Positions 15,241-58,106 of a DNA stretch of 64,000 nucleotides are shown in pieces. The stretch lies in NCBI RefSeq assembly GCF_026914265.1, contig NC_069136.1, positions 25,742,701 to 25,806,700 on the forward strand, in the 5' to 3' direction. The position numbers were made by a program, and so were the translations under genes. The notes beneath the pieces are model-generated. The model was not told the origin of the DNA and made no database searches. It was given only the letters and a program-made list of their open reading frames with translations. This DNA is from Mya arenaria (lineage: Eukaryota; Mollusca; Bivalvia; Myida; Myidae). Position 1 is the stretch's first letter, and each line of letters begins with the position of its first letter.

Positions 15241-17012
15241 TGGGTAAAACCTTATTTTAAAATGGCATGGCCATAGCAGTTTGGTATTGCTGAAACATAA
15301 GATTCAGCTACTGGAGCTGCAGTTGACTCACTGATGTGAATGAACACTAATGTATCAATCAAATCTTCAGCAGGCACTACATCTAATTTCTGTGTGGCTT
15401 TGACTGCCAACAGATGTTTACAACATTACAAACTCTTTTTTTAACCTCAAGTACTGTGAAGAGCAATAATGTTTATTACCTATACTTATTCGGTCAACCT
15501 TTCTCATTTCCTTTACACATTCTACCCCCAATAGTGCCAAAACTTCAGCTTCAAGCTCATTATCTCTCAAATGTTTTACCTTCCCCGATATATCACAATT
15601 TGCAGCTTCAGCAGTCTTTTTCCATAGTGTTGACTGTGCCGACTGAACACCTTTTCTGTGTAAACAGGAAACTGCCTGTTTGTACAGCATTACTTGTCTC
15701 ATAACATGACCTGTTCCATGTACTGCCTGAAGCAACATTGCATTGTTATCCTCAAAAAGGAAACAACTCCATGCCCATAGTGGTCCCTATAACTTAACAT
15801 ACCAAACCAAATGCATGCAAGCATTATGAACATTCAGACCACATGATCCTTGGCCATATAAATCAGCAAAACTATAGTAAAACTTGTCCAACAGCATGGC
15901 TGCTCTATCCAGTGCCCTGGCAATATATTGTCTCCAAGAAGAATATATACAGCTTCAGATAGATATGAAAAATGTACCAGAAAAACTTCTGGTAGTATTC
16001 CCTGTAAACATGGTATACCATAAAACAACAACCAAGCTTGAAGTTCTGTGGCTTTTGGGTTATTAACATGTTTTTCTAAATCACGTGGTAATCTCTCAAT
16101 AGAGGTAGGAGGCTGAATATTTTGAAGTCTTTTAGAAATAGTTTTTATATGTTTTCCAATGAAATAATTCTTACCACTTTGTGTTGGAGAGAACCATTTT
16201 AATAACAATGTCTGTGTTATACCTAACAAAATACAATGCATGTAGTCTGGTACTACACCCTTAACCAGATCAAAGGACTGAAGAAATGCTAGCCCAGAAA
16301 TGCCTTTAAAACCTTTAATCCTTTTCTTGTCTGTTGCATTTCGCATGTTTTCTAAAACCTCCGGACTATTTCGTAATGGATATTGTTCAGCAACATTCCT
16401 ATAGGGATAACATCGAGAAGATCCTTACCCTTGTTTCACAACAACACCAGGTTCTTCACAGGTAATGCATGCTTCAGTCCCGTTGAAGTAAGTCATATTG
16501 AGAATACCAGCTTTGGCTGGCAGATCAAATACACCACAAATAACACCAAGCTTTACAGCAATAACTCCATTATCTGTATTTACTTCAACCACTTTATTGT
16601 ATAAACTGTTCATTTCTTCACTGAAACTTTCTATATATTGTTTAAATGGTGGTTTCCCCTTTCCCTGCCATATCCCAACCAATAGCATGTTATCTCTTGA
16701 AAATCTTGCTTTGGGACTCAACTCATTAATTGCCATAAAAATTGGCCACAACTCAATTCTAGAAGAGGAATACAGATTTACTCCATCTGTATTGATGATG
16801 GCACTTAAGTTGTAAGGACTTTGTAGAAAACTGTTATCTTCATTCAGAATTTCTCTGTAAGCTTGTCCGTTGGTGATGTCTGTCAGGTTTCTACAATTGT
16901 TCCTGTCTTCTATTTCTTCTTTACATTTTTCAATTTCCTTCAGAATTCCTGAAATGGAAAACAAATAAAAAATGCATAATATCCATGGTTATTTACAAAG
17001 AGTGATAATTAA

Positions 17013-21208: not shown

Positions 21209-22684
21209 AAGAAGGCCCAACAGTTGAAAGACAGTTCAAAAGATTTCTCCATATCATATTGACTGAAGAGGCTCCAGAGGACAATAATAAACAGATCCAG
21301 GAATATGCAAGAGGTAAGCAAAAATAGTGCAATCAAGACAGCAGACATCCATCATCATTTACGTGAATTTGTACAGTTAATGTAAATGCATATTGCATTG
21401 ATTTGTTTAAAGGGCCCAATAAACAATGCAGAGTTTGGCCTGTTGCAATCTGACATGTACTTTCTGAGAAACATCACATTACACTTACGTTAAATACTTT
21501 TCTTGTGCTAAAAGCAGACCGTCCAGAGGCTGTACAATTTCTAAAGTATGTATTGTTGCTGCAGGAAACCAACTTGGCAAAGGTATGGACCACTCACATC
21601 CTCAAGACAAAACGGGTTCAGGATCACCAGTGGCAGCGCTTGCACAGTCCAATGTAGGCAGGACAGGCAAAGCAGCACACTCCACTTTTGATACACCAAA
21701 GAGGCAAAACATTCCAAGTGGAACTTCAACAGTAGATGATACAGGTAATTGTGTAAATTCAAAGTTGGCCAATGAGACGTTTGGACGCCACAGTAAGATT
21801 TTTACAACTATAAAATGCCATTATTTTTTTCAGTTGTTTTAGCAAACCCGTGCACTTAGGTGAGCTGTTATGTACGAAAGACCGGTGGTAACATTTCACA
21901 TTCAATATTTCATGATTTCCTTTACACAAATTCCCGACTTCAACTTCACGAATTCACGGTTTCAACTTCACGAATTCACAAATTCACGATTTCAACTTCA
22001 CGAATTCACGATTTCACAATTTCAACTTCACAATTTAACGATTTCAACTTCACGAATTCAAGATTTCAACTTCACGAATTCACGATTTCAACTTCACGAA
22101 TTCACGATTTCAACTTCACGAATTCACGATTTCAACTTCACGAATTCACGATTTCAACTTCACGAATTCGCGAATTCACTATTTCAACTTCATGAATTCA
22201 CGAGTTCACGATTTCAACTTCACGAATTCACGATTTCAACTTTACGAATTCACGATTTCACGATTTCAACTTCACGAATTCGCGAATTCACGATTTCAAC
22301 TTCATGAATTCACGAGTTCACGATTTCAACTTCACTATTTCACGAATTTAACTTCACGAATTCACGATTTCACGATTTCAACTTCACAAATTCACGCTTT
22401 CACGAGTTCAACTTCATGATTTCACGATTTCACGAATTCACGATTTCAACTTCACGAATTCACGAGTTCAACTTCACGAATGCACGACTTCAACTTCACG
22501 ATTTCGCGATTTCAACTTCACGAATTCCGATTGCATCTCACGAATTCGCGATTACAACTTCACGAATTCCATTTTACGAATTCAACTTTTTTGATGACGT
22601 CACCATCGCGCGGGAAAAACTTGATATAACAAGGAAGCACCACAGCCCAAGGTGACAAGGTTAATCCCAGTGCTGAGCGACATA
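21209..22684 (+). CDS. Unknown gene, three phase-consistent internal exons
   Basis: Exon A (21209-21313) reads EGPTVERQFKRFLHIILTEE and on to IQEYAR, between an AG acceptor and a GTAAGC donor. Exon B (21565-21744) continues in phase as GNQLGKGMDHSHPQDKTGSG and ends in VDDTG at GTAATT. Exon C (22634-22684) can continue in phase (STTAQGDKVNPSAERH) to a GTATGT donor, though its acceptor is poor. No start, stop or known domain is visible; the B-C part is hydrophilic and probably disordered. A 660-bp tandem array fills the B-C intron. Phase agreement at two junctions argues for a real or recently real gene, but it could be part of a transposon. Confidence 0.35.
21931..22588. repeat. 22-bp EcoRI-site minisatellite array
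   Basis: About 30 imperfect copies of a unit close to CACGAATTCACGATTTCAACTT, with many GAATTC sites. Because 22 is not a multiple of three, all three plus frames read through with peptides such as HEFTISTSRIHDFNFTNSRF; these are repeat artefacts, not genes. Confidence 0.95.
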
Positions 22685-24774: not shown

Positions 24775-27510
24775 TTATTGTTCTTTTTTTAATTGCTTTG
24801 CTAAAATAGCCACTTCTAATTCTAATTTTCTTTTTTGCAGCTGTCTGATTGCTTTACACTCCTGACAGCAACATCGATTGCATGATGTAGAGGTTGTGAA
24901 CACTTTGGAAGTCGTGCTAGCCTCAGGTCTTGAAAGATGAAACGTGGCAGGAACCTCATCTGCCTCCAACACTGGCTGATATGTCCTGGAATTACAAACT
25001 CTAATTCTAAAATGTGCTATCATATTTTTGCAAATCTTGTAAAAAAAGTCACTATGCTGACTTGTTTAGAATGTGAGAGTCATTTTTAAATATTTTTCCC
25101 AACTTGATCATACCCGAGAATGTCTGTGATATATTTTGGAATTGAACCTGGTACCAAATTGGGACTTTCCAAACTTTGGGAAAAATACAAATTTATGTTT
25201 GAATGGAAAGTATAATATAAAATAGACCTATTTCTACCTTTTTATGCATTTAATCTAAAATGGCTACCAGGTAGTCTTATCAAGATGTTGTTATCTTTTT
25301 AAGCAATTCATTGCTGTATTCACTGAAAATCTTATTAATTATTTTGGCAAATATAATTTCATGGGGATTTTTTGGCAAGAGGAAACATCTCTTAAAGCAG
25401 TAAATTGCACCAAAAAGTCAATGAATGTGTGCTATGTTTTATTTAAGTCCTTAGATATTTACATGTACATGTCGGTATACATCTGAAATCATTTCTGTGT
25501 TCATGTTATTTTATATCAATGTGCATTGTAGTGTTATCTCACCCTGTTATATATAAATGTCTTAGTGATATGAATGTCTTAGTGATATCAAAGTCTTTGT
25601 GATATGTTTGTCTTAGTGATATGATTGTCTGAGTGATGTAAGTCATATAATTGTCTTAGTGATATGATATAATTGTCTTAGTGATAAAAATGTGGTAGTG
25701 ATATGGATGTGTTAGTGATGTGAATCTGACAGTGATATGAATGTCTTATTCATATGAATGTCTTAGTGATATGATTGTCTCAGTAATGTGAATGTGTAAG
25801 TTAATGGCAATGTTTGAATATTTTAATGTTTAAAATGTATTGGTTACATTCAGATGTTATTGTTAAAAGATATGGATATCTGGATATGTTAGTAATAGCT
25901 AAGAATACTTTTTATAACAAAGATGACATCAACAGCTTGACGAAAATGTTAACCAACAAGTGACTGTGAGAGATACTTACGTGTAATCATTTACAAACTG
26001 ATATACAGGCTGTGAATTGAGACCAACATCTGATCTGCTTTGGCTGAAAAAAAAAGATTAAAATAATTATTGTATATTTGAGAAAATTCACACATCAACT
26101 CATTTCTGTATATGGTAGGATGTGGAACTTAAGCCTTATAAAATATCATTTTCCACCATCTAATCAGTACACATATGTTCACATATTGACCCATTTGGTT
26201 ATTTATTTCAATGGTAATATAGCAAGATGAAGTTCATTGGCATTATGCATTATTGTTGAAGATCTCAAATTTGGTTTGTAAGATATTCCATCTATTGATA
26301 CCTTTCCTGTATACATGTTGAATCAAATTCTTCTGATCCACCGATTCCATCCATGGCACAGCCATCCCTGCCAATAACATCAATGACAGCATTTGTCAAA
26401 TCTGACAAGGAGGCTGTATTTTGGCCATTTCCTGAAGAAAATAATGTTTTGCTTCCATTAACTTTTGATAAATTATTTGTGACTTTTGTACAGTATTATC
26501 ATTTCTATTTTTAATTATTGTTTGTATATAATATGAATATCACCAAGTGTGGTGGAAATAATGGCAAGTTGAAAGTTGAGTTGAGTCATTACATTTCATT
26601 TAAATTAATTCTTAATGTAATCAAGAGTTCATTAAGAAAATATTTATGTACATAATAAGTATGTGAAAGTGTCAAAATTCACTTTTTAAATTGATCAATA
26701 TGTCTAAAAAAGGGAATCAGTATGTAGTTATAATATTACAATTACTATTGAAACTGCAAGTACAGTTGTGATCCTAATTGATTACCTCATTTAATAAATA
26801 ACATGAATTGATTTAACTTTTTATTTAATTTCATAGATATATGTAAAATGAGAAAAATATGAACCTGTCAGATGAAGCTGCCTTTTGTAGTCCATGAACT
26901 TAGGGCGGTGGACTTGGGTCAAGTTGTCCCACTTCTTAGTTAGAAGGTCTACAGTTCTTTGTATTCCTGTAGATTGGACATTGAAGCTTCTCTCAACAGT
27001 CTCCCACATTTTTCTTTTCGTCTCTGAGGTGATTCCTTAAGGACAATTTGTTTTATAAAAAATGAATATACGGTACATGCATGATTTTTCATTATTAATT
27101 ATCAATAAATCCAAATGTTATGACCAGGAATCAATAACTAGGGGAGAAGGAGGAAGTTTCAGGAGCATAAAATATTTGCATGATTATCTTCTTTTCATTT
27201 ACAAATTATTTTGACATAGAATTATTATTTTTTTTTTTTTGGGGGGGGGGGGGGGTCGCACGGGAAAACCTGCAACTGGATTACTACAACTAGGCAAAAA
27301 ATGTGTTCCAAATAAATAATTTGCATATATATAATTAATCTATCGTTCTCTTTTATTTATAATGTGTTCAAAGTAAAATGAATATCAATGAGAAAGCGTG
27401 ATATTGGTTATGAATTATCATTTTTTTCTTCATTTCAAGGATAATTTTTTCTTTAGTTTTTAATTACTTGGCAAATAACAAGATGTACTTACTTGAAGTA
27501 TAGCCTTTCT
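24775..27510 (-). CDS. Harbinger Myb/SANT-like protein, 5' end missing (element A)
   Basis: Five minus-strand exons join in phase with no stops. The 5'-most is a partial exon ending at a GTAAGT donor at 27493 (KKGYTS). Then 27035-26865 (KMWETVERSFNVQSTGIQ...LTKKWDNL), the Myb/SANT-like DNA-binding helix. Then 26431-26302 (SLSDLTNAVIDVIGRDGC), 26043-25981, and 24985-24775, a Cys-rich patch followed by a C-terminal coiled coil (RKLELEVAILAKQLKKEQ) and stop. In Harbinger elements this protein binds the termini and recruits HARBI1 to the nucleus. The N-terminal part of the domain is cut off where the parvovirus-like element begins at 27511. The remaining frame is intact, so loss was recent or the piece is constrained. 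Confidence 0.7.
25554..25795. repeat. Degenerate 17-bp tandem repeat
   Basis: About 14 variants of ATGTCTTAGTGATATGA, strongly diverged, in an intron of the Harbinger Myb-like gene. Confidence 0.85.
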
Positions 27511-27735
27511 TCTCTGGGCTCTAGGGCCTAAAAAAAAAATTGTTTGGTTAGGGTTACATCCTTAAAAAAAATAGGTAGGGTAGGTAGGCTTTTTATTTTT
27601 TTTATTTATTTTTTTTATTAGGTTTTATATAAGAATATAATTTTCATCATTGGAGAATGGTGTTAAAGCTATCTTCTGTACAAGCATTTAAGGTTTAAAC
27701 TTAATATTAAAAAGCAATTAAAAAAAAAACGAATT

Positions 27736-27770
<35 letters not shown>

Positions 27771-27981
27771 TTTTTCATTTTTTTTTTTAAACTGACTATA
27801 AAAACGGTAGGGTCGGCGCCTATTCCGTAGGTAGGGTCGGGTAACCCGAACCAAATGTATTTTTTTTTTAGGCCTAGCTCTATGTCGTATGTTTCCCTAC
27901 GGGATCGCGAAGCGGGCGAAGCCATAAACAACGACATAGAGCTAGAGCCCAGAGACGAGTGTATCTCTCACCCGTAATTTT
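27511..27981. repeat. Left hairpin ITR of the parvovirus-like element
   Basis: Outer arm CTCTGGGCTCTAG (27511-27524) plus CTCTATGTCGT (to 27888) pairs with inner arm 27931-27955. A 42-base loop (27889-27930) contains TTCCCTACGGGATC and a repeated GCGAAGC motif. The inner continuation to 27981 is shared with the right ITR. The outer arm is interrupted by a 349-bp MITE. A stem with an asymmetric closed loop is the classic parvoviral telomere used for rolling-hairpin replication. Confidence 0.85.
27525..27873. mobile_element. 349-bp MITE inserted in the left ITR
   Basis: Terminal inverted repeats GGCCTAAAAAAAAAATTGTT and, from the right, GCCTAAAAAAAAATACATTT, both followed by TTGGTT[A/C]GGGTTA. 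Subterminal GGTAGGGTAGGTAGG motifs are present, with a long A/T homopolymer core. CTAG flanks both sides (27521-27524 and 27874-27877), consistent with a 4-bp target duplication. Since it splits one ITR arm, it arrived after the parvovirus-like element. Confidence 0.75.
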
Positions 27982-28085
27982 GTCATCATCCGCGCACTAT
28001 TTTTATTTATTGTATTTTCATTGGCCCGAAGGGTAGAACTCATTTGTTTACATCGGATGAATTGTTGTGTTCATAGTCTATGACA

Positions 28086-28093
28086 TATAAAAG
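28086..28093 (+). promoter_or_regulatory. TATA box of the parvovirus-like element
   Basis: TATAAAAG lies about 110 bases inside the left ITR and 119 bases before the capsid-like start codon, the right place for the main left-end promoter. A good splice-donor match (GTAAG at 28168) follows, and an acceptor-like TATTTCAG sits at 31591-31598 before the NS1 core. Parvoviruses commonly use spliced transcripts, so NS1 could be made this way; this is inference. Confidence 0.6.
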
Positions 28094-28204
28094 AAGTTGT
28101 TATTGTGTGACGTTTCATTGATGATTGAGACGTTGAGCTGTTCACTACCAAAAATACAGTGGATATAGTAAGCATATTTTATTACTCTTTGTATTTATTG
28201 CATT

Positions 28205-30319
28205 ATGTCTTCTTCTATTTCACCAGATAACAAGAAGAACACTGAGAAGCAGGCAGACCTCGGAGTTGGTGACGGTGTGAGTGCAGGCAATGGTATCTAC
28301 CAACAATTTAGTCAAGATGTAGCTTCAGGTGGTAAGAAATCTGTAACATTCTCGCGTACATTTGTACACTTCCTTGGCCCAGGCGTTGAAAAAGGAGGAG
28401 CCAAGGTTGAGAGCAACGCAGAAGGAGAGCTCTGCTACTCATATGATTGGGGTGCTAGTATTCTACCTTATAATACGACTAAGGCCGCATGTACCCCGTC
28501 TAAGTTGTTACCTTATATGTCAAAGTGTAACAGCTATCGTATCACTGGTCATGGCGTACGTATACATGATCTCATAACGTCCCGCGACGAAATTCAGGCT
28601 GATGGTCGCATAGTGACCACCCCTATGCCAGACTCTATAGAAGTATTCTCAGATAAAAATAGATTACCCAGTTACATCGTGCCAATAGGCACTAAAACTA
28701 TCTTCGAAATCAATAAAGGGTTTCGTCGTGTCGAACCAGAGACATGGGAGGAGGGGTTACTACCCCGGGTTAAAGTCCAATTTCCCAGTGAAATGTATCA
28801 GAGTACCCGTAACGAGCCCCAACGTGACTTCAGACTTAAGGCATTTGATGTATACAATGGTCTTTTCGCTATGTTTACTTGGAATACTGGCAATGAGCTT
28901 ACATTTAACGCTGAACTTGACTCAGGCCGCATCCCCGTAGGCTCATTCGCTGAAATGCACGAGTTACCATGTAATAAAACGTCACTCAATCTAGCCAATA
29001 AAATGCTCGATACAGTATGGGGCATTCAGGCTAACATGGCGACTCAACAGAATCGCTCTCCCATCATCCCCCCCATGCCTGTCTTCTTCCGGTTTGCCCC
29101 TTTCTTTACGGCTAGGGGCCGTGCCCAACGTAGAGCTCAATTTAAATGTACTTATACTTCAACCATTGAGTTCTACTTCTCACCACGCATGGGAGTTGAA
29201 ATGTTAATGCTAGGTATCCAAGGTAAACGAATGAATGAACCCTATGTTGACCCCTGGGACAATGCTGCAGCTGACGTACTGCGTTACAATCCTGGTGTCC
29301 ATGCTGAAAACTTTGTCATGCCCTTAACCGCTTACATCCTTCAAGAGACGGCCCTCAGAACCGGAAACGACGCACTTGTCCCCAAACCTGTTGTCCTAGA
29401 CGAAGAAATAACTATGCAAAACACTGTTGAAAGCGAATTTGTCAAAAAAGGTTACGCTCTCAGTGACGTCATGATCAATGACATCCCCGTGGTCAAAAAC
29501 ATCATGTCAGAGGCCGGTGACGGCAATAAAAAGACAGACGAACGTGAGGTTGGACATGACTTACGGAACCCCGAGTTCTATGCTTCCGCTCTAGAGGGCA
29601 TGGGCTTTAGTCAAGACGAGATTAGTTTATTTGACGACGTACTTGACCTAGAAGCTGACAGTCAAAGCACAGCTAAAGACTATGTCATGAAGAATGGCAT
29701 CCTAACACAGACTTCCGCTGACGACAAAGACGACGTAATCGGTCCTCTCCTTCCTGTTCAAGCCATCCCACAAATAGATGGCGACGTACGAGTCACAAAC
29801 ACTCGTAATCTCAGGCCAGCAGAGGCATGGCGCGCCATAGGGATAGAGGACTATCCTGTATGGACGCGCAAAAGACACGGTTATAACTTAAGTTATGTAC
29901 CGTGGCCCAGACTTGATCAGTATGGCACTGTTAATAAGAATCTATGTGACATACGTGATGTTCAAGCCGTTCGTCGGCTTAATGAGGCTGGTATTCTCAA
30001 AAAAATGAGAGTAGTTAATAGGGCTAATCTTGTTACTGATATGGAGTTTGATGAGGGGGGTACTAAAAATAATGCACAAATGTTTGAAAAACCTGCTAGT
30101 CAGCTGCAAGAGAGTACGCTTACAACTCCTTTGCAGGTTGTCGGACAAACATCAATCCAACAGGTCATGCCAGCGACTGATTCGTTTCCAGAGCTAAAAC
30201 TTTCACTGACACCGGAGGACGAACAGACGCTCGTCAAGCAGACACCACTCAGTCACGAACAAGACACCCAAGACGATATCTTCTCCAGCCCCCCGTATAA
30301 GAGACCACGCAAAGAGTGA
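28205..30319 (+). CDS. Capsid-like protein (VP) of the parvovirus-like element
   Basis: A 704-aa open frame starting MSSSISPDNKKN. The N-terminus is Gly/Ser-rich (about residues 20-45, GVGDGVSAGNG), as in many densovirus capsids. The middle (about 60-330) is beta-rich with aromatic strands and ends in a PVFFRFAPFF...STIEFYF segment resembling the last strands of a parvoviral jelly roll. An acidic region (about 430-530) follows. The C-terminus ends in a basic KRPRKE that could serve as a nuclear localisation signal. I see no phospholipase A2 motif (HDxxY), which many but not all parvovirus capsids carry. It is placed before NS1, opposite to the common order. Its stop overlaps the next start in TGATG, a reinitiation-type junction. 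Capsid identity is inferred from length, composition and context. Confidence 0.6.
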   Translation: MSSSISPDNKKNTEKQADLGVGDGVSAGNGIYQQFSQDVASGGKKSVTFSRTFVHFLGPGVEKGGAKVESNAEGELCYSYDWGASILPYNTTKAACTPSKLLPYMSKCNSYRITGHGVRIHDLITSRDEIQADGRIVTTPMPDSIEVFSDKNRLPSYIVPIGTKTIFEINKGFRRVEPETWEEGLLPRVKVQFPSEMYQSTRNEPQRDFRLKAFDVYNGLFAMFTWNTGNELTFNAELDSGRIPVGSFAEMHELPCNKTSLNLANKMLDTVWGIQANMATQQNRSPIIPPMPVFFRFAPFFTARGRAQRRAQFKCTYTSTIEFYFSPRMGVEMLMLGIQGKRMNEPYVDPWDNAAADVLRYNPGVHAENFVMPLTAYILQETALRTGNDALVPKPVVLDEEITMQNTVESEFVKKGYALSDVMINDIPVVKNIMSEAGDGNKKTDEREVGHDLRNPEFYASALEGMGFSQDEISLFDDVLDLEADSQSTAKDYVMKNGILTQTSADDKDDVIGPLLPVQAIPQIDGDVRVTNTRNLRPAEAWRAIGIEDYPVWTRKRHGYNLSYVPWPRLDQYGTVNKNLCDIRDVQAVRRLNEAGILKKMRVVNRANLVTDMEFDEGGTKNNAQMFEKPASQLQESTLTTPLQVVGQTSIQQVMPATDSFPELKLSLTPEDEQTLVKQTPLSHEQDTQDDIFSSPPYKRPRKE

Positions 30320-31590
30320 TGGCAGACAGGTCAGATGATAGTGATATTGCAAACATTAGGTCAGATGATAGTGATATTGTAAATAGTTTTAAGCCACTTC
30401 ATTTTTATGGCTTGAATTTATTCATTAACGCTATACAAACAGGTATACAAAATCTTTGGGTTAATACTCATCTCACTACAGGTTTTCAATGGCAACTAGT
30501 CAGTCGTTATCTTAGAAATGCATTAATTCATCTTGGTGTTCCAAATGTGGTAGCACCTACAAAAATGTCTGAGGTTATTCAACGTAATGTATGTGAGGAT
30601 ATTCACAGTAATGATCGAGTATGTTATCCATCATATGCAGGCAGTCCTACAGGTGTATTTAATGGTGAACTTATGACTCCTACTGAACATCAATGGGGTG
30701 CCGGAGTAGATTGGACTAGATTCAGTTTTAAAAGAGTAGTTGTTAGTATGCCTGATGATGATGTCTTTAAAATAAAAGTAATTAATGCTAGAGGTGATAT
30801 CTTCTTTGATTCAGAAGGCAATCTAATTTGTCAGCATATTGATAATACTAAGAGTAACTTATTTACCATAGCCATTTACATGCTTGAAAATCAAATGCCT
30901 ATTCCAGAACTGCCTAAACTCGTAAAAGCATTAGATGAGGTTACTGCAATTCAAAAGCAAGTTGTAGGTGTTGCTGCTAAAGTCGGTGCTGTAGGTTCCC
31001 AATTAGAGACAATGCAAAAAGAACGAATTGATTATTTAAACAAAGAAAAAGATATGCAAAGAGCAATTGCAACCATAGAATCAGAAATCGAACGTGTCGA
31101 TAAGACACTCATTCCTAACGAAATACAAACATTAGCTGCCCGAATAGGTGTGTTAGAACACAAACATGATACAGACATTGCAAACATTCCAGAGCCTCTC
31201 GATAGGATTAATGACGTCATTGCTCGTCAACGTATTAGAGTAATAACAGACAGGGTGGATGGCATACTCAATCAAATGACTAATTATCGTGATAATACCA
31301 TTGTCAAAAGACCGTTCGTACCTTATACAGCTGTGGTACCAACTGCTGATGGTGGTAAAGATCCTCATCATCAAGAGGCACCTGATCTATTAAATAGAGT
31401 TAATGGAGTCATTGAACGTGTAGAACAATTTGTACGTGAAGTACAGCGTTATACGCAACTAGTTAATAGTCTGAAAGAACAAGTAGATGTTCAAGCTGTT
31501 GACCAACAAAATGAAAACATGGGGGGCTGTCCATGTCCATTGCGTGCCACATATACATCTGGCAAGCGTCCTTTTAACACACTTTCATAA
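30319..31590 (+). CDS. Coiled-coil protein of the parvovirus-like element, unknown role
   Basis: ATG at 30319 overlaps the capsid stop by one base (TGATG), which suggests stop-restart translation; 423 residues from this Met. The start has a direct repeat (RSDDSDIAN / RSDDSDIVN). Residues about 25-190 look globular (FYGLNLFINAIQTGIQNLW; GAGVDWTRFSFKRVVVSM). About 205-290 form a long heptad coiled coil (VGSQLETMQKERIDYLNKEK), and a second coil lies near 365-405 (RVNGVIERVEQFVREVQRY). The end is CPCPL and basic. No known family is recognised; a trimeric spike or minor structural protein or an assembly factor are guesses. Codons are A/T-ending, unlike the more GC-rich capsid and NS1 genes, which hints at separate origin. 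Its 3' end overlaps NS1 by about 100 bases. Confidence 0.6.
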   Translation: MADRSDDSDIANIRSDDSDIVNSFKPLHFYGLNLFINAIQTGIQNLWVNTHLTTGFQWQLVSRYLRNALIHLGVPNVVAPTKMSEVIQRNVCEDIHSNDRVCYPSYAGSPTGVFNGELMTPTEHQWGAGVDWTRFSFKRVVVSMPDDDVFKIKVINARGDIFFDSEGNLICQHIDNTKSNLFTIAIYMLENQMPIPELPKLVKALDEVTAIQKQVVGVAAKVGAVGSQLETMQKERIDYLNKEKDMQRAIATIESEIERVDKTLIPNEIQTLAARIGVLEHKHDTDIANIPEPLDRINDVIARQRIRVITDRVDGILNQMTNYRDNTIVKRPFVPYTAVVPTADGGKDPHHQEAPDLLNRVNGVIERVEQFVREVQRYTQLVNSLKEQVDVQAVDQQNENMGGCPCPLRATYTSGKRPFNTLS

Positions 31591-34500
31591 TATTTCAGGC
31601 CTGCCGTACAATACAAAAACTACTCTGTTCAAGCCAGCACTTCCGGGTCTAGCGGTGGGTTCAGAGTTCCCCGCTACCAACAAAAATTACACAAACAACC
31701 AGAGAAAAAATTGGGAAGAAATATACAACACCGATATCACTTCCGGCGGTCCACTATACTCAATTGTTATTGAATTTCCTGACGAGTTCACATCAATCGT
31801 TGACGCTCTGCAACCTCAAAGGCCATTGTTAAAGAAAGACGGTGATTACCTGCGAAACAAAACCAACGAAGTATGCAAGACGTACTTCTCGTCAGAAGAC
31901 ATCTCTGCGAGACGCCAATATTGTACACCCACTGTTGCGTGGTCAACCCCCACCAACATCTACAACGGAGCCATACCAGAGTTAGAGAAGAAGGTTGTCG
32001 ATGCAGTCAAGAACCTGTGCAACAACTCGCCATGTCTTGCCTGCTGGCACGACGGCCGTTCAGACGAGTCTTGCAGCTTCCGAGGTCTCCATATGCACCT
32101 AATCCTGCACAGCCATGTCAACTCATTTCCTCAGGGCCACTACGGGTACACACGTCTAACGACAGTAGTGAAGGAGACGATGACCTTCTTCAATGGATTG
32201 AAGGTTCGCTATCAGAAATGCGCGAACTTCAGTGGCTTGACCAGTTACCTCCTCCGAGATCCCCGGATTCTGCTAGGCTGCAACAACGACATGATGCTCA
32301 AAGAAATACAGAAACACTCACCGCCATCAGAACTCGGTACAGTCCAGACCATGTGGCGGACCGAAAAAGAATCGGAGGAGGTGCCATTCGACGAAGTCTG
32401 GGAGGACGGGGAGCAACCCGGTATGAGCGGGCAATCTTCGGGGACCAGCCTGAGCGCGTTCAGCCGACAGCTACAATCACTAGCGTCCCAGAATCGCCAA
32501 CAGGAAGCATCAACTCCAACGCAAGTACCATCAGCGACCTATCGCGAGAGTATTCTCCCTTTTACTCCCCAGCCACGCCAACGAGTGCAGATCTCCGCGA
32601 CAGCTCGGAAGATAGAACACATATTAGCTCGTCTGAAAGAGTATTCCGCCACAACGTACGAAGAGGTCCTAGAACACCTCAAGGGCCTTACACCTCAACC
32701 CCTAGACGAGATCGCTAGGTGGCGCACGATAATGACCTCCATGAACAGCATGAGAATGCTTCAACAGGCTCAAGCAGAGATGGAGATTGACCGAAAACAG
32801 ACACAGAGTACATACATTGACACTCTAATAGAAGCTAACTTTGGAGATGAAAGTGATATGATGTCACAGCAGGAAACAACCAGGACTTTCATCGACTGGT
32901 GCACAGAACAGAATATCACGCCGGCTGCCTTCATCTTGGATTTGTATCTCATATTGGGCCAAAAACTCAAGAAAATCAATACGTTCATGCTTCATGGCCG
33001 CTCGAACGCTGGCAAAACTTATTGGATGAATGCTGTCACACCAATACCAAACATTGTAGGCCAAACTGTCCCCAGTGCAGACTTTGCCTGGATGGACAGT
33101 CCCGGGAAGTAGGTCATTATGGTGCCAGAATTGAACATTACTAAACCAGAGCAGGTCGAAGAGATAAAGTGTGTATTTGAAGGTCAAAAAAAGAAGATTG
33201 GCATCAAGAACAAGGCTCCACAGTTCCTGGACAGGACTCCTCTGCTGCTCACGTGCAACACCAAGCCATGGGCAAACTATACTGAAGAAGAGGAGGGGTT
33301 GAGAAACAGAATGGTGATGTATGAGGACCTCATGGAATACCAGAATGTTGGGAATCCAAACTTGCGGTTTATCCCGCACATCTTTAAATATATCAAGGAC
33401 GAACTAGATAGTGGGCTTGATTTCGGATATGATATACAGTCGGATGAAGATCAACGCTCTGAAGCAGAAGAGGCAATAGACACGTTCTTGAAAAAGGAGT
33501 TGCAGGACTACGTCTCCTTGGAAGAATTTTGGGATAACGAAGAGGAGGAGTTCGACCGGTTAAATACAAGCGTCCATATCGACCCCACAAGAACCGACCG
33601 GTATCTCACTTTAGAACCAGATAGGTTTGAAAGGGGATACCCCTTGTCATGCTCAATTCGCGAAATGAAGCAACATTTCGTCCAGTGGAAAAAGCAAGCA
33701 GGAGATTACTCGATTAAATGGGACAACGATGCGTGCGTTCTACTTAACTGTAGAGAGGAAAGATATCGAGTGGCAAACATCCCGGCATACATCATGGCCA
33801 AACTGAAGTACCATAAGATCAGGCTTGTTAGAGTGTACAAGATATTTGAAAAGGAAAAACTCACCTTGATCCAGAAAGACGGCTACCCAGTCAAATCATC
33901 CATAAAAGAAATGGTCCAAATGATTTCTAAAATTCAAGAAGCTCATGAGAAACATAGTAAGAGGTTCGCACCGAAAATTGCAAGCACGCCTATCATCCCT
34001 GCTGCCACTTGGATTGAAGATGAAGTCATGTCAGATTGGCCGGAACCAGCTATTCCAGAGTCTCTCTTGACTGCGCATGCTCCTCCAACGCCGCCAATGT
34101 CCCCGATACCGAAGAGGGCAAGGCCAAATGAAAGTGGAGGTATGATAAACTACTCTCCTTTACTAGATTTCGCAAACTACATGTATAACTCATTTGTTGC
34201 TGATGATAGTGCTGAATTTGTCATTCCAATTAATAAACCAAAAATGCAACTGACAAGGTTTATCAACACTCATTATATCAACAAACCGCCTAGTGCTAAA
34301 ATAACAGGCCGCACTTTCTTTCCAGATGCGGAAGCCGGAACTAGTGGAGCATCTGATCTTACTCATCTTAAGACTGCCAGCTTTTCTCCTACGAAAGCTC
34401 GTGAAATTTTTAGAGAAGCGATGTACTCCCACAATGAGCCAACGACCTATGAAAGGATCGAACGTACAGTACAAACCTATCTGCAAATCCAAGAAGCGGA

Positions 34501-34645
34501 AGCAGATGAAGACCCCGCCGCTGTCGCCATTGTCCGTTCCCGAACCAATGAATGGAGAGACTTGACAAAAATTGACATTGAACTAGTGAAGCATCTAGGG
34601 TACCTTTGGATGGAACTAAAGGACTGTCTAACTCTCGATGCCTGA
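31487..34645 (+). pseudogene. NS1-like replication protein (HUH nuclease + SF3 helicase), broken
   Basis: A parvoviral NS1 relative with about one break. The N-terminal part carries an HUH nuclease signature (GLHMHLILHSH) and a downstream YLLRDPR segment where parvoviral NS1 proteins place their catalytic Tyr/Lys helix. The C-terminal part carries an SF3 helicase: a P-loop (GRSNAGKTYW) and the PLLLTCN sensor motif. In working relatives NS1 nicks the ITR hairpin, unwinds it and drives transcription. The first ATG in frame overlaps the coiled-coil gene, and an acceptor-like site at 31598 suggests a spliced start instead. The C-terminal region past the helicase is Pro/Ser-rich and unassigned. 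The last bases overlap the small acidic gene. Confidence 0.8.
31873..32718 (+). CDS. NS2-like frame overlapping NS1
   Basis: A 281-codon frame open for 846 bases inside the NS1 region, which is unlikely by chance. The start is Cys/His-rich (MQDVLLVRRHLC). The middle is acidic (SSEGDDDLLQWIEGSLSEM). The end is Ser/Pro/Arg-rich and probably disordered (DLSREYSPFYSPATPTS; RRGPRTPQGPYTSTPRRDR). Densoviruses encode NS2 in this position by leaky scanning within NS1. The overlapped NS1 stretch is also the low-complexity linker between nuclease and helicase, as expected where two frames share sequence. Confidence 0.5.
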   Translation: MQDVLLVRRHLCETPILYTHCCVVNPHQHLQRSHTRVREEGCRCSQEPVQQLAMSCLLARRPFRRVLQLPRSPYAPNPAQPCQLISSGPLRVHTSNDSSEGDDDLLQWIEGSLSEMRELQWLDQLPPPRSPDSARLQQRHDAQRNTETLTAIRTRYSPDHVADRKRIGGGAIRRSLGGRGATRYERAIFGDQPERVQPTATITSVPESPTGSINSNASTISDLSREYSPFYSPATPTSADLRDSSEDRTHISSSERVFRHNVRRGPRTPQGPYTSTPRRDR

Positions 34646-34946
34646 GATACGTTACCTTGACCCCGGAGATGCAGAGTACATGGAATTTGATGAAGAACAA
34701 TTGGGTATAGAGGACGCCTTAGATATGTTAGAAATTGATGGAAATGAAAATATGACAGTACCTGATATTGATGATTTACGTGTTAGAATTGCATTTATTC
34801 GTAGTCTTATTGACGATTATATTAATGAAATATACTTTGACTTTAATAGAATAATTGGTATGTACGGCTTTACCGATATTGATGAACTGTTTTATCGTTT
34901 AAGAGAGTTGAATATTATGTTGTGTGTATATAGTAATGAAGAATAA
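34638..34946 (+). CDS. Small acidic protein of the parvovirus-like element
   Basis: A 102-aa open frame whose ATG overlaps the NS1 stop region by 8 bases. It is strongly acidic (DPGDAEYMEFDEEQLGIEDA) with a predicted helical half (LRVRIAFIRSLIDDYINEIY). A/T-ending codon use resembles the coiled-coil gene. No family recognised; possible accessory protein. Its stop lies inside the AATAAA poly(A) signal at 34942-34947. Confidence 0.5.
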   Translation: MPEIRYLDPGDAEYMEFDEEQLGIEDALDMLEIDGNENMTVPDIDDLRVRIAFIRSLIDDYINEIYFDFNRIIGMYGFTDIDELFYRLRELNIMLCVYSNEE

Positions 34947-35042
34947 ATGTGATATGTTCAATTAAACTTGTTCATAAAAAAAAAAGAAAAAAAGGGCACA
35001 AGTGAGAATGGTTTTATCCATTCTTGCTTGTGCCTTTTTTTT
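34942..35042 (+). terminator. Poly(A) signal and 3' stem-loop of the parvovirus-like element
   Basis: AATAAA at 34942-34947 overlaps the last stop codon. Downstream, AAAGGGCACAAGTGAGAATGG (34991-35011) pairs with CCATTCTTGCTTGTGCCTTT (from 35018) around a short loop, with A and T runs extending the stem. Such a hairpin could protect or end the transcript, or be an internal palindrome used in replication. Confidence 0.65.
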
Positions 35043-35101
35043 AAAAATCAAAATAAAAATGGCGGGAAAAACCGGTCCGCTGAATATAACGGTACTTAAT
35101 A

Positions 35102-35170
35102 AAAATTACGGATGAGAGATACACTCGTCTCTGGGCTCTAGCTCTATGTCGTATGTTTCCCTACGGGATC
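35102..35170. repeat. Right hairpin ITR of the parvovirus-like element
   Basis: Bases 35102-35152 match the reverse complement of 27931-27981 at 50 of 51 positions. The next 18 bases (ATGTTTCCCTACGGGATC) repeat the left loop in the same plus-strand reading, not its reverse complement, so the two loops are in opposite flip/flop states. The right copy is shorter than the left and joins Harbinger-derived DNA at 35171. Confidence 0.85.
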
Positions 35171-35857
35171 ATATTGTTACCAAATTTAACAGATGAAGAA
35201 GATGCGGAGAGTGAAAGCCTTAGGTCATCAAAGTTACCCCCGCCATCCAAGATCATGATGGCGGCACAGCCTACTGCAGGACCATCAAAGAGCAGTTACC
35301 AAGAACACAAACAGGAACGTGTGTAAGTATTTGCCATGTATTCAAACAACTGCATTGTAAAAATACGATATATGAAATATACACCAATTGAGTAAACTTC
35401 AACATTAACAGTTTGAATCCACACATTATTTGATAATTTTTGTCACAATTAGCAATAGTTTCAGTTCACTGTTATAACATCATATTATTATGATCCTTAT
35501 TATCATAATCCTTATTGTTAATAGTGTCAAGAGAAGGAAGACCAAAGCAGAGGAACTCATTGATTGGCAAATTTTATACTTTCAAAATCAGGTGGAATTG
35601 GCACAGCAAGAGGTATGAAAAAGACTAAGGGTACGGAGGATGTTACATAAAGTATAAATTTACATGTAGTTCAATGCAAAAGGGGTTTCAACCACAACAA
35701 TTATATGTTAGATGAATTATATATGCCAAATAATAAAGATTGTAGTACCAAATCGGCAAAGTTGTTTATGTTTTGTTTTGTTTTACAGAAGGAAATCAAT
35801 CGGGTGAAGCTGAGAGTGATGGAAAAATATGAAAAAAACTTGATACAGAGGAAATAG
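35171..35857 (+). CDS. Harbinger Myb/SANT-like protein, C-terminal exons (element B)
   Basis: Three exons join in phase: 35171-35322 (partial; LPNLTDEEDAESESLRSSKL), 35525-35612 (KRRKTKAEELIDWQILYFQN) and 35789-35857 (KEINRVKLRVMEKYEKNL, stop TAG). Acidic linker, basic patch and C-terminal coiled coil match the tail of Harbinger-associated Myb-like proteins. The DNA-binding N-terminus is absent because the parvovirus-like element abuts at 35171. It converges with HARBI1 B on the other strand, the standard Harbinger layout. Sequence differs from the element A Myb gene, so this is not its missing half. Confidence 0.65.
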
Positions 35858-36214
35858 ACGGATTCATCCGGACAACCTTCTTCGAGAGTTAAACATGAAC
35901 ATGTGATATGGTTTATTTCATCCTGGTTTTCATGGCGTTTATTTATTATTTGACTGTTTGCAATTTATGTACGAGCTTGTAAAGTTACCTACATGATGTG
36001 TTTAATTCAATGTGAATCGTCTGTCTGCAATATTTAGGCCATTCTGAGCGATTTACCTTACTTGCCAAAATAAAGTGAGCACGTGAAAAATCCATGTATC
36101 CAACCGGTGTTGTTTTTCATTAATAAGTGCCTTTACACAATACACAAACAATTATGAATGAAGAGCAAACAATGTAAGAATTATTATTTTTTACTTTAAG
36201 AGGTGTATGAAGAT

Positions 36215-36385
36215 GTTGATAATCTAACAGCGATGATGATAAACTAACAGTGGTGATGATTAACTAACAGTGGTGATGATGAACTAACAGTGGTGATGAT
36301 GAACTAACAGTGGTGAACTAACAGTGGTGATGAAGAATGAGCAGTGGTGATGAAGAACGAGCAGTGGTGATGATGAACGAGCATT
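36215..36385. repeat. 18-21-bp minisatellite
   Basis: Repeats of CTAACAGTGGTGATGATGAA grading into GAGCAGTGGTGATGAAGAAC. They lie just past the HARBI1 B stop codon. Confidence 0.85.
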
Positions 36386-36413
36386 TATGATAGCAGTGGT
36401 ATATATATCGATA

Positions 36414-37820
36414 CTACACAGAGAAGAAGTTTTCCACAATGAAGTCTCTAGTGGCAACGCCAGTACCATCATCTTGGTGTACTCCATCATTCCCATTCTG
36501 TGGCTGAATGAACTCATTGTCGTCCATAGGCATGTTCATGTCCACTGCAATATTATGTAGGATAACACATGCCACAGCTACCTTGCATGCCTTTTTTGGT
36601 CTGAGGCGTATCTGTAAAATTATATAATTTAATTGAAAAAGGTGAATATTTGAACGTGTGCGCGTACATGCATGATCGGTTTGGTGTTTGTTTAAGGACA
36701 CCATCTGAAAACGCCACATGTTCAATGGTCAGTTTGGCTGCCAATCCCGACGTTCTGAAGACGTGCGCGTCGTGGCACGACCCAGGCCAGCTTGCATTTA
36801 CACTTGTAAATTTTCCTGAAAAATGATTAAACAATTAAACTGTGCAATAATAATCAGAGTTGAATCCGCAAATGGCAGTGGTTCACTTGGGTTATGGTTC
36901 ACTTCGTCCTGCACCTTCCAAACTCTTCACAATCTGTATGCATAGACTCTGTATACAAAATCTTTTTGAGTACGGTACCATATGTTATCTATGTCTACGA
37001 GTTATTTATTTAACAAAAAAATGATAAATAATATAGTACGTCGACTTGAATTATTGTATTAATTAATAGAAATATAAAATCACTATTTAATAACATTTTT
37101 GGTCAGCATTTAATAACATTTTTGGTAAGCATTTTCCCTCTTTATGTATACTGTCAGCGCTCCAGTCAGCTTTTTAGTATCGCCCTTTAACCGGACGTGT
37201 TTTGGCCGAATTGACAATATAATTATTATGTTAAGCGTTCGAAAGAAAAGATGGAAATACTGAAAACAAAAGTGGAAAACTCAAAGTTTTATACCTTTGA
37301 TGTCACATACAGCCTGCATGTTGATGCTATGGAAGCCTTTCCTATTCACGAAGGCTGGTTCGTCTTCGGATGGCGCCTGGATTCGGATATGTGTTCCGTC
37401 TACACATCCAACAACTTTCGGGAAACCAGCTTTCTTAAAAAATTCTGTCATATTCCATGCTCGAGCATTGGCATCAGGCCACATCACAAACTGATGTATG
37501 TGACCACAAATTGCTTCTGTTACTTGGGCTACAACACGTGACACAGTGCACTTGTGGTAGCCCATGCTATCACCAATGATGTTAAAAAATGCTCCTGTGG
37601 CGAAGAAGCGCAACGTAATCAGAATCATCTGTCTAACAGTAAGTGCTCTGTTTCTTCTTGTCGTTCTTTCCAGCGATTCCTTCAGCAAATCCTCTAGATA
37701 ATCTATTCCACCATTCGTATATCTGTATCTGGCATACATCTCATTGTCTAGCATATTCTGTACATGTGCAGTGTGCCGAAATTCTTTCACTTTTCTATGA
37801 TTTACAAATAGAGCCGCCAT
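36414..37820 (-). pseudogene. HARBI1-like DDE nuclease, internally deleted (element B)
   Basis: Exon 1 (37820-37295) starts MAALFVNHRKVKEFRHTAHV and contains the HTH-like LTVRQMILITLRFFATGAFF and the first catalytic Asp region (VVGCVDGTHIRIQAP). Exon 2 (36815 to about 36690) is in phase and carries the second Asp (ASWPGSCHDAHVFRTS). It then breaks off at AFSDGVL, where the family normally continues with GDSGY and the RxxxE helix bearing the last catalytic Glu. Exon 3 (36611-36414) resumes at RLRPKKACKVAVACVILHNI to the stop. About 100-130 residues including the catalytic Glu are missing, so this copy cannot cut DNA. HARBI1-type proteins normally pair with a Myb-like partner such as the one at 35171-35857. 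Confidence 0.8.
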
Positions 37821-37830
37821 CTTGGAAACC

Positions 37831-38016
37831 TTCCGTTAATGTTTTAACGTAGGTCTATTCCTCCGTTACATTTAACGGCTGGTTCAACCGTTAAACCCGC
37901 CGTTAAATTCTAACTTTATTTTGAGCAACCTCATACCAATAATAGTTAAAATTAAACGGACCGTTAAAACTTTAACGAGCCGTTAAATTTAACTGAGGTT
38001 TTGAGCAACCGGCCCC
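37831..38016. repeat. Harbinger B terminal region with CCGTTAA motif cluster
   Basis: About seven CCGTTAA or TTAACGG motifs in both orientations fill 37831-37990. The region ends in GAGGTTTTGAGCAACCGGCC, which read outward to inward (GGCCGGTTGCTCAAAACC) is a typical Harbinger terminus. The motif cluster just upstream of HARBI1 B may be binding sites for the Myb-like partner. The opposite terminus was not found in the window. Confidence 0.55.
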
Positions 38017-56672: not shown

Positions 56673-57620
56673 CTATCTACATCGCAAGATGCCTTCTTGG
56701 AACTTGTCACTTTTGTTTAACACTGGTTTGTCGTAAAAGTTTCTAAATGTACTTTCTCTTGACCATCCCGCTTTAGCAAGAATGCCCGCTATAGGTACTG
56801 CTGATGTACTTGCTTTTGATGTCACCGCAGATATAACACTGTGTGAACCGAAATCCTTTACATTGATTCCAGCTCTACACATAACTGTCTTTATCCATCT
56901 CGAGATGGTGTCTCTAGTTACAGTTGTGTGTGGTTTGACATAACTCTTAAAAAAACTTTCCAGAATTACCATTGTGTCTGAGCACACTAGTACGGGAAAG
57001 CTATTCTTTCAAAACAGTATAAATGCATAATCTCCTTTCTGGAGGATAAGCTCGAAACGAAACACAATCAACATTATGTCCGGGCCTGCTTTGCTTAAGA
57101 TGCCCATTAAATTGTAACACATATTCAACAACTTTTTGTAACATTTAAAGTTCAACAAATGTAACGTATGTACATGTGCAGCTTGAGTCAAGGCCATAAG
57201 CATTACTAGCTTCAAAGTGAGATCCTTTAAAGAGAAATGTTCCACTGGTGAAACTTTCTTTAAATACAACAAAACTATATCTACATCCCAGATATATGTA
57301 TATCTAGGTTTGGAAGGTCTAGATGCAAAAACTCCTTTCATGTATCGTATAATAAATGGATGATTCCCTACTCTAAAACCATCGAACTCTAAATCTAGTG
57401 CCGAGAGAGCTCCTCTTGCTGTGTTTAAACTTTCATATCCTAGGCCTTTTGAATATTGGGATGTTAGAAATTCCACTACTGTTTCCAGCGTTGGTAATAT
57501 TGGAGATGTTTCCCTTTCACTACAGTACTGAAACCACCTGTTGATATGCGTGTTATATTGTTTCTTAGTCCCTGGCCGCGCATGAATAACGCCGTCTGTT
57601 ATAAACTTGCTCCTCCTGAT
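56673..57620 (-). pseudogene. DIRS-type tyrosine recombinase remnant, broken
   Basis: The minus-strand region encodes pieces of a tyrosine recombinase as carried by DIRS-like retroelements: HARPGTKKQYNTHINRWFQY, GYESLNTARGALSALDLEFD, YTYIWDVDIVLLYLKKVSPV with LTLKLVMLMALT, and a C-terminal end TISRWIKTVMCRAGINVKDF with AGWSRESTFRNFYDKPV. The final HS...GW...FY pattern is the catalytic end. No reverse transcriptase or split repeats are seen nearby. Treated as a fossil with a few breaks; a fold-back repeat lies just beyond its 3' end. Confidence 0.65.
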
Positions 57621-57640
57621 AAAAGTGTGTGTATAATAAA

Positions 57641-58106
57641 TACCACGTGATAAATTGCGCCATAAATCATAAGAGCTACGTCGAAAGGCAATATTTTGCT
57701 TCGGATGAAGACTTCAAACTAAGATAACTTTAATATTTCTTCACCATTTCAAATGCATCATAGCGCAGTCTACGCCGCTTACGGAGCCCCGCCTTCGGTC
57801 TTTTACCAGAGTTTGATTGAGAGTTTAGTTTCTTAAAATACTTCGACAAACCTTTTCACAATACGGCCGTCTGACAGAGCACTGTCAAAAGATTATTTGG
57901 GAAACAGATTAGTCGAAGTTTTTGATGAAACTAATCACCTTTATCAAACTTCTGTAATAACATGAAGGCGGGTCTCTTTGAGCAGCATAGACTGCCCTTT
58001 GTTTTATTTAAAAAGTAAAAGTTAAGTTCTATGATTTAAGTATATATATCTAAAGCAAATTACTGCCTTCTGACGTAGCATTTATGACGTAATTTATCAC
58101 GTGGTA
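57641..58106. mobile_element. MITE family 3, 466 bp
   Basis: TIRs of about 55 bases start TACCACGTGATAAATT and read outward as AATTTATCACGTGGTA at the right, followed by related ACGTCATAAATGCTACGTC / GCCATAAATCATAAGAGCTACGTC. TA-rich flanks fit a TA-targeting superfamily. A family I recall as abundant in bivalves. It abuts the DIRS-like remnant. Confidence 0.8.

Follow-up and report, generated by a model that had tools for sequence, protein, structure and literature searches.

Within a 64,000-nucleotide (nt) stretch of the Mya arenaria genome (contig NC_069136.1, positions 25,742,701 to 25,806,700, forward strand; hereafter the window), we found an element that probably derives from a parvovirus-type virus with a linear, single-stranded DNA genome. 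The copy is integrated, nearly complete and slightly decayed, and its 7.3 kb are laid out on one strand with the putative capsid gene first. In its workings, that is in its hairpin ends and its SF3 replicase, the element is parvovirus-like; its size and its gene order, the latter judged with a capsid gene that is putative, fall outside those described for Parvoviridae. It apparently exceeds its described relatives in size and has its genes reversed in order.

The limits of the element are set by the outermost terminal-repeat sequence (Table 1). Subtraction of a 350-bp insert and a 3-bp TAG duplication leaves 7,307 nt of virus-derived DNA, in agreement with the 7.3 kb given by a first-pass annotation of this DNA and above the published parvovirus genome sizes of 3.6-6.2 and 3.9-6.3 kb (PMC11357303, PMC10267136; what is said of these and other cited papers refers to the accessible parts of each). 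The element forms a compact, gene-dense island, with a GC content per kb of 0.39-0.51 over 28-35 kb compared to 0.29-0.45 in the rest of the window, where the surrounding DNA is mostly more AT-rich. Its plus strand carries stop-to-stop frames of 715, 429, 541 and 510 amino acids (aa), to be read against a chance ceiling of 221 aa, the longest frame obtained when 300 sequences of matching dinucleotide composition were generated at random by a Markov model; minus-strand frames do not exceed 179 aa and thus lie inside the chance range. The genes follow the order ORF1-ORF2-NS1-acidic open reading frame (ORF), all on the plus strand. The window flanks hold no second copy of any of six element pieces (best E 0.45), and Rfam gave no match at the gathering score in the region 27400-35500.

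The terminal inverted repeats (27931-27981 and 35102-35152) are 51 nt long and 98% complementary, and a 33-nt outer hairpin half is present twice as a direct match (27874-27906 and 35138-35170). The left end (27874-27981) folds as a stem with small side arms (z-score -4.99), none of 200 shuffled sequences being equally stable. The right end is incomplete inside the hairpin and alone has no stable fold (z-score 0.29, with 118 of 200 shuffles equally stable). The element therefore has hairpin inverted terminal repeats, as Parvoviridae do and as the first-pass annotation had held. Inside the left repeat lies an insert resembling a miniature inverted-repeat transposable element (MITE), which has only two matches elsewhere in the window, of 20-22 nt. 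The outer 14 nt of the viral repeat survive beyond this insert, which explains the start at 27511 proposed in the first-pass annotation; the insert itself is an addition to the features listed there, as is an NS2-like frame described below. A further hairpin, with an A/T-run base, lies immediately internal to the right terminal repeat, 3' of the candidate polyadenylation signal; it has no Rfam match.

The presence of transposon genes on both sides, together with an insert bearing its own target duplication inside the left repeat, identifies the element as an integrated copy. The viral element itself shows no target duplication at its junctions, as judged by inspection only. A stop codon within NS1 and the insert in its left repeat suggest that it has resided in the chromosome for some time, and the still open ORF1, ORF2, NS2-like and acidic frames argue for moderate age or selection. 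Matches of 0.05-8 kb have been described in the genomes of 31 invertebrates (PMC5013282), and the capsid-like and NS1 parts might on this precedent be ordinary densovirus-like integrations, juxtaposed by separate insertions or rearrangement. We consider this very improbable, because the genes overlap one another (ORF1 with ORF2, ORF2 with NS1, and NS1 with the acidic ORF) and because a single outer pair of inverted repeats encloses them all, with no terminal-repeat copy reported between them.

The replicase gene, NS1, is read in two pieces that share one frame and are separated by a single in-frame stop (33110-33112), consistent with the one break, approximately, that had been predicted. The two pieces were searched separately. 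Trimmed to its first 114 codons (33113-33454), piece b matched the Pfam family Parvo_NS1 at 20.9 bits, above the cut-off of 20 (E 2e-4). An 83-aa piece containing the Walker A motif gave a match below cut-off (E 0.058); it aligns to profile positions 84-134 and the 114-aa piece to positions 170-209, in the right order and with fitting spacing. Against PDB, the best nine of the 12 sequences listed for the 114-aa piece were Rep40, Rep68 or 'DNA replication protein' (E 0.053-0.19), the other three being nucleoporins. We take the Rep40 and Rep68 entries to be those of adeno-associated virus (AAV). The first-pass annotation had proposed an NS1-like gene and profile searches with the HUH, SF3 and capsid-like segments kept apart. 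The gene is upheld by these matches, an SF3 helicase of the parvovirus NS1 type being recognized in the trimmed piece only; the HUH and capsid-like segments returned no profile match. Piece a contains an HMH motif that is presumably the HUH nicking motif, a reading that no profile supports.

Piece a is overlapped by the NS2-like frame, whose length is beyond chance: its 290 open codons compare with a maximum of 262 aa among 2000 permutations of the piece-a codons, none of which reached 283 aa. None of the other large ORFs has a long second frame on the same strand (at most 83 aa in the capsid ORF, 40 in the coiled-coil ORF and 86 in the SF3 piece), and the shifted frames in these three each fall below the 95th percentile obtained when the codons of the respective sequence were permuted 500 times. 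Monosense densoviruses that likewise carry an NS2 ORF, of 253-466 aa, overlapping the N-terminal part of NS1 have been described (PMC9896142).

Several results weigh against the element being a parvovirus copy of this kind. Untrimmed, both NS1 pieces remained below the Parvo_NS1 cut-off (E 0.046 and 0.0035; piece b 16.8 bits compared to 20), and the trimming that took the helicase past it was our own choice. A papillomavirus helicase model performed about equally on the 83-aa piece (E 0.060 compared to 0.058) and also matched the 114-aa piece (E 0.033). The 83-aa piece matched six PDB sequences, all of them unrelated proteins (E 0.27 and above), and NS1 piece a had no PDB match. For the HUH region there was no Pfam match, and a single-sequence fold of 261 of its residues had a predicted local distance difference test score (pLDDT) of 32.0. 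Searches of Pfam, PHROGs and NCBIfam with ORF1 found no match, a PDB search yielded no capsid match for it, and a single-sequence AlphaFold2 model of its first 359 residues had a pLDDT of 29.4. A glycine-rich ORF1 start, considered as a capsid mark, was rejected as not significant given the make-up of the sequence (85 of 1000 shuffles). Words reading AATAAA, the candidate polyadenylation signal, also occur inside the ORFs. A spliced NS1 message was unsupported, with no donor at 8 of 9 consensus positions and eight loose acceptor candidates.

Those ORF1 searches leave the 'capsid-like' label of the first-pass annotation without support. Of its capsid-first, one-strand layout, the arrangement stands, in that a 704-aa gene precedes NS1 and all genes lie on the plus strand; the capsid identity does not follow from the searches. 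Against PDB, ORF1 showed similarity only to designed repeat proteins, weakly and in two stretches (E 0.017 and 0.81; residues 385-418), which we regard as chance; for its first 359 residues there was no PDB match. The name putative capsid protein is based on position, length, a basic C-terminus (KRPRK at residue 699) and a start and other features that resemble those of parvovirus capsids; no search or fold speaks for it. It is conceivable that ORF1 encodes something else, in which case the element would be a satellite or mobile element that carries accessory genes and has taken over its hairpin ends and parvovirus-like replicase from elsewhere. Such an origin would fit the missing capsid match, and also the absence from all 704 residues of HDxxY, the motif of the phospholipase A2 (PLA2) domain that is usual, not universal, in the minor capsid protein of Densovirinae. 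We nevertheless find it distinctly unlikely, given the place, size and basic tail of ORF1 and its seemingly capsid-like start. Among the six ORFs, moreover, Pfam gave no integrase, PolB or transposase match up to E 1, and divergence is rapid in capsid genes, with VP identity below 15% between some densoviruses (PMC5013282).

The first-pass annotation had also singled out a 423-residue protein of no known family. Both points hold for the product of ORF2, which has this length and matched no family above cut-off in Pfam or other family profiles. Heptad-like hydrophobic spacing was detected at p<0.01 in 3 of its 19 windows (neighboring windows overlap), compared to 1 of 33 in the capsid ORF, 2 of 25 in the HUH piece and 1 of 23 in the SF3 piece. 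Pfam matches to CorA and to a Nuf2_DHR10-like family fell below cut-off; we took them as coiled-coil similarity and rejected both assignments. Most likely, the protein would be a minor structural component present in few copies, or would serve in capsid assembly.

The ORF1 stop and the ORF2 start have one base in common and, with the similar overlap between NS1 and the acidic ORF, suggest two translationally coupled pairs, as judged from sequence. In murine norovirus, the minor structural protein VP2 is made through stop/start coupling (PMC2793014), and by analogy the capsid message may yield the ORF2 protein in minor amounts. The single candidate promoter word, TATAAA, lies 119 nt upstream of the ORF1 start, and no TATAAA is found between the ORF1 and NS1 starts. 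Candidate NS1 starts are the ATG codons at 31487 and 31511, both within ORF2. The length of the acidic ORF alone is within the chance range.

Taken together, the motifs and ends point to an exogenous virus that would have replicated by the rolling-hairpin route, the HUH domain of NS1 nicking the branched hairpins and the SF3 domain unwinding them. Going by the signals, and in contrast to published parvoviruses, one left-hand promoter (TATA at 28086) could drive the structural pair, capsid then coiled-coil protein; the same transcription would continue into NS1, the overlapping NS2 and the acidic protein and end at the polyadenylation signal over the last stop. The coiled-coil and acidic proteins may arise by termination-reinitiation at the observed stop/start overlaps. 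NS1, which would have to start from mid-message, might depend on a second promoter, splicing or leaky scanning.

The element shares features with several known systems and differs from each of them. Like AAV (Dependoparvovirus), whose Rep40 and Rep68 gave the helicase piece its top PDB matches, distant ones with E 0.053 at best, it ends in a small, branched terminal hairpin of comparable design; AAV differs in gene order and size. With Densovirinae, both the monosense Iteradensovirus and the ambisense genera, it shares hairpin terminal repeats and an SF3 NS1, whereas its putative capsid gene upstream of NS1 on the same strand, its extra coiled-coil and acidic ORFs and its lack of HDxxY set it apart. 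Parvoviruses of 3.6-6.3 kb are smaller than its approximately 7.3 kb (PMC11357303, PMC10267136). In parvovirus genomes NS occupies the left side and VP the right (PMC11357303); the family order of NS before VP on one strand, or an ambisense arrangement, differs from that of the element, provided ORF1 is the capsid gene. The segmented densovirus AdSDV has T-shaped termini and a VP separate from NS, as here, but consists of two segments of ~3.3 kb each (PMC10267136). Hamaparvovirinae measure 3.9-6.3 kb, and some of them read NS1-NP-VP (PMC9896142). Cynoglossus semilaevis parvovirus also has, beside NS1 and VP, an extra ORF without known homologues; this ORF, however, encodes 182 aa and lies at the 3' end, and the available text does not state a capsid-first order (PMC11125579). 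Bidnaviridae combine an SF3 NS1 of parvovirus descent with an extra structural protein, but in them PolB replaces the nicking endonuclease (PMC4061559), whereas the element has no PolB match and has an HUH-like motif.

Relatives were sought in viral metagenome contigs, in a single set of prokaryote genomes and among phages. IMG/VR contigs queried with the capsid, SF3, HUH, coiled-coil and four shorter pieces, and GTDB contigs queried with the capsid, yielded pattern matches and no confirmed relative; tblastn of the SF3 piece and the capsid against phages yielded no match. These collections do not establish the undescribed lineage claimed in the first-pass annotation. The element could instead be a member or close kin of a lineage already described and missing from the searched collections, which would be compatible with its being a parvovirus-kind copy. 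The contig scans depend on shared 8-residue words, and mollusc-derived parvovirus sequences outside known genera are on record, along with endogenous matches of up to 8 kb (PMC5013282). Such kinship seems to us somewhat unlikely in view of the published sizes (PMC11357303, PMC10267136) and of the NS-left, VP-right layout (PMC11357303). Furthermore, no capsid-first, one-strand parvovirus was found among the literature matches listed, a survey with subscription papers and preprints largely outside its scope; the accessible parts of PMC11357303, PMC5013282, PMC9896142, PMC10267136, PMC9825006, PMC6631224, PMC12451622, PMC11125579, PMC4061559 and PMC6950620 contain no such layout. We tentatively propose, with the case for it nearly balanced, that the element may represent an undescribed lineage beside Parvoviridae at family or subfamily rank, a 7.3-kb capsid-first, one-strand unit in which stop/start coupling like that of bacterial operons would yield a low-copy coiled-coil structural protein from the capsid message and an acidic protein from that of NS1. 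If a larger, capsid-first, one-strand relative with hairpin ends does exist, neither gene order nor the size limit is fixed in parvoviruses; bidnaviruses and segmented densoviruses could be compared with it, and the means by which a parvovirus-type genome expresses a replicase gene in a downstream position could be put to the test.

Table 1. Features of the element and its flanks (window coordinates)
Feature	Position	Strand	Remarks
Whole endogenous parvovirus-like element	27511..35170	+	7,660 nt including 350-bp insert
Outermost left terminal-repeat fragment (outer hairpin arm)	27511..27524	+	Identical to 35128-35141; reverse complement at 27942
MITE-like insert in left terminal repeat	27525..27874	.	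350 bp; perfect 16-bp terminal inverted repeats; TAG target duplication 27522-27524 / 27875-27877
Left inverted terminal repeat	27875..27981	+	Branched (T/cross-like) hairpin and inner arm; fold and repeat match
TATAAA, candidate promoter	28086..28091	+	Sole plus-strand TATAAA of the element outside the insert
ORF1, putative capsid protein	28205..30319	+	704 aa; no family match; no HDxxY; basic C-terminus
ORF2, protein with coiled-coil-like stretches	30319..31590	+	423 aa; start overlaps ORF1 stop (TGATG)
NS1 piece a	31487..33112	+	HUH-like (HMH) motif codons from 32087; SF3 Walker A codons from 32996; terminated by in-frame stop
NS2-like frame	31873..32718	+	281 aa from first ATG; 290-aa open frame from 31846; overlaps NS1 piece a
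NS1 piece b	33113..34645	+	Remaining SF3 helicase, asparagine segment from 33242; C-terminal region
Acidic ORF	34638..34946	+	102 aa; isoelectric point 4.05; start overlaps NS1 stop by 8 nt
AATAAA, candidate polyadenylation signal	34942..34947	+	Overlaps last stop codon
Hairpin	34987..35042	.	25-pair stem counting G-T pairs; z-score -6.72, 0/200 shuffles
Right inverted terminal repeat	35102..35170	-	Truncated within hairpin turn-around; repeat match
Flank: Myb/SANT-like domain	26821..27036	-	PF13873, E 1.6e-06
Flank: DDE_Tnp_4 transposase piece	37284..37835	-	PF13359, E 4.4e-07

The Myb/SANT-like and DDE_Tnp_4 flanks are presumably of the PIF/Harbinger type, and the element probably landed in or near such a transposon. 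When the flanks are rejoined at the empty site, the junction is crossed by a 70-residue plus-strand frame and a 49-residue minus-strand frame, which we leave without interpretation. A repeat array with a spacing of ~20 nt (36197-36391) adjoins the element.

Elsewhere in the window, a tnp2-type transposase piece (Transposase_21, E 8.8e-12) occupies 16428-16988 on the minus strand, with a neighboring frame at 15837-16424, and repetitive plus-strand frames at 21860-22652 suggest a short tandem repeat array. At 57012-57713, a minus-strand frame of 234 aa has a weak, below-cut-off match to a phage-integrase SAM-like domain (E 0.031) and perhaps belongs to a tyrosine-recombinase transposon.
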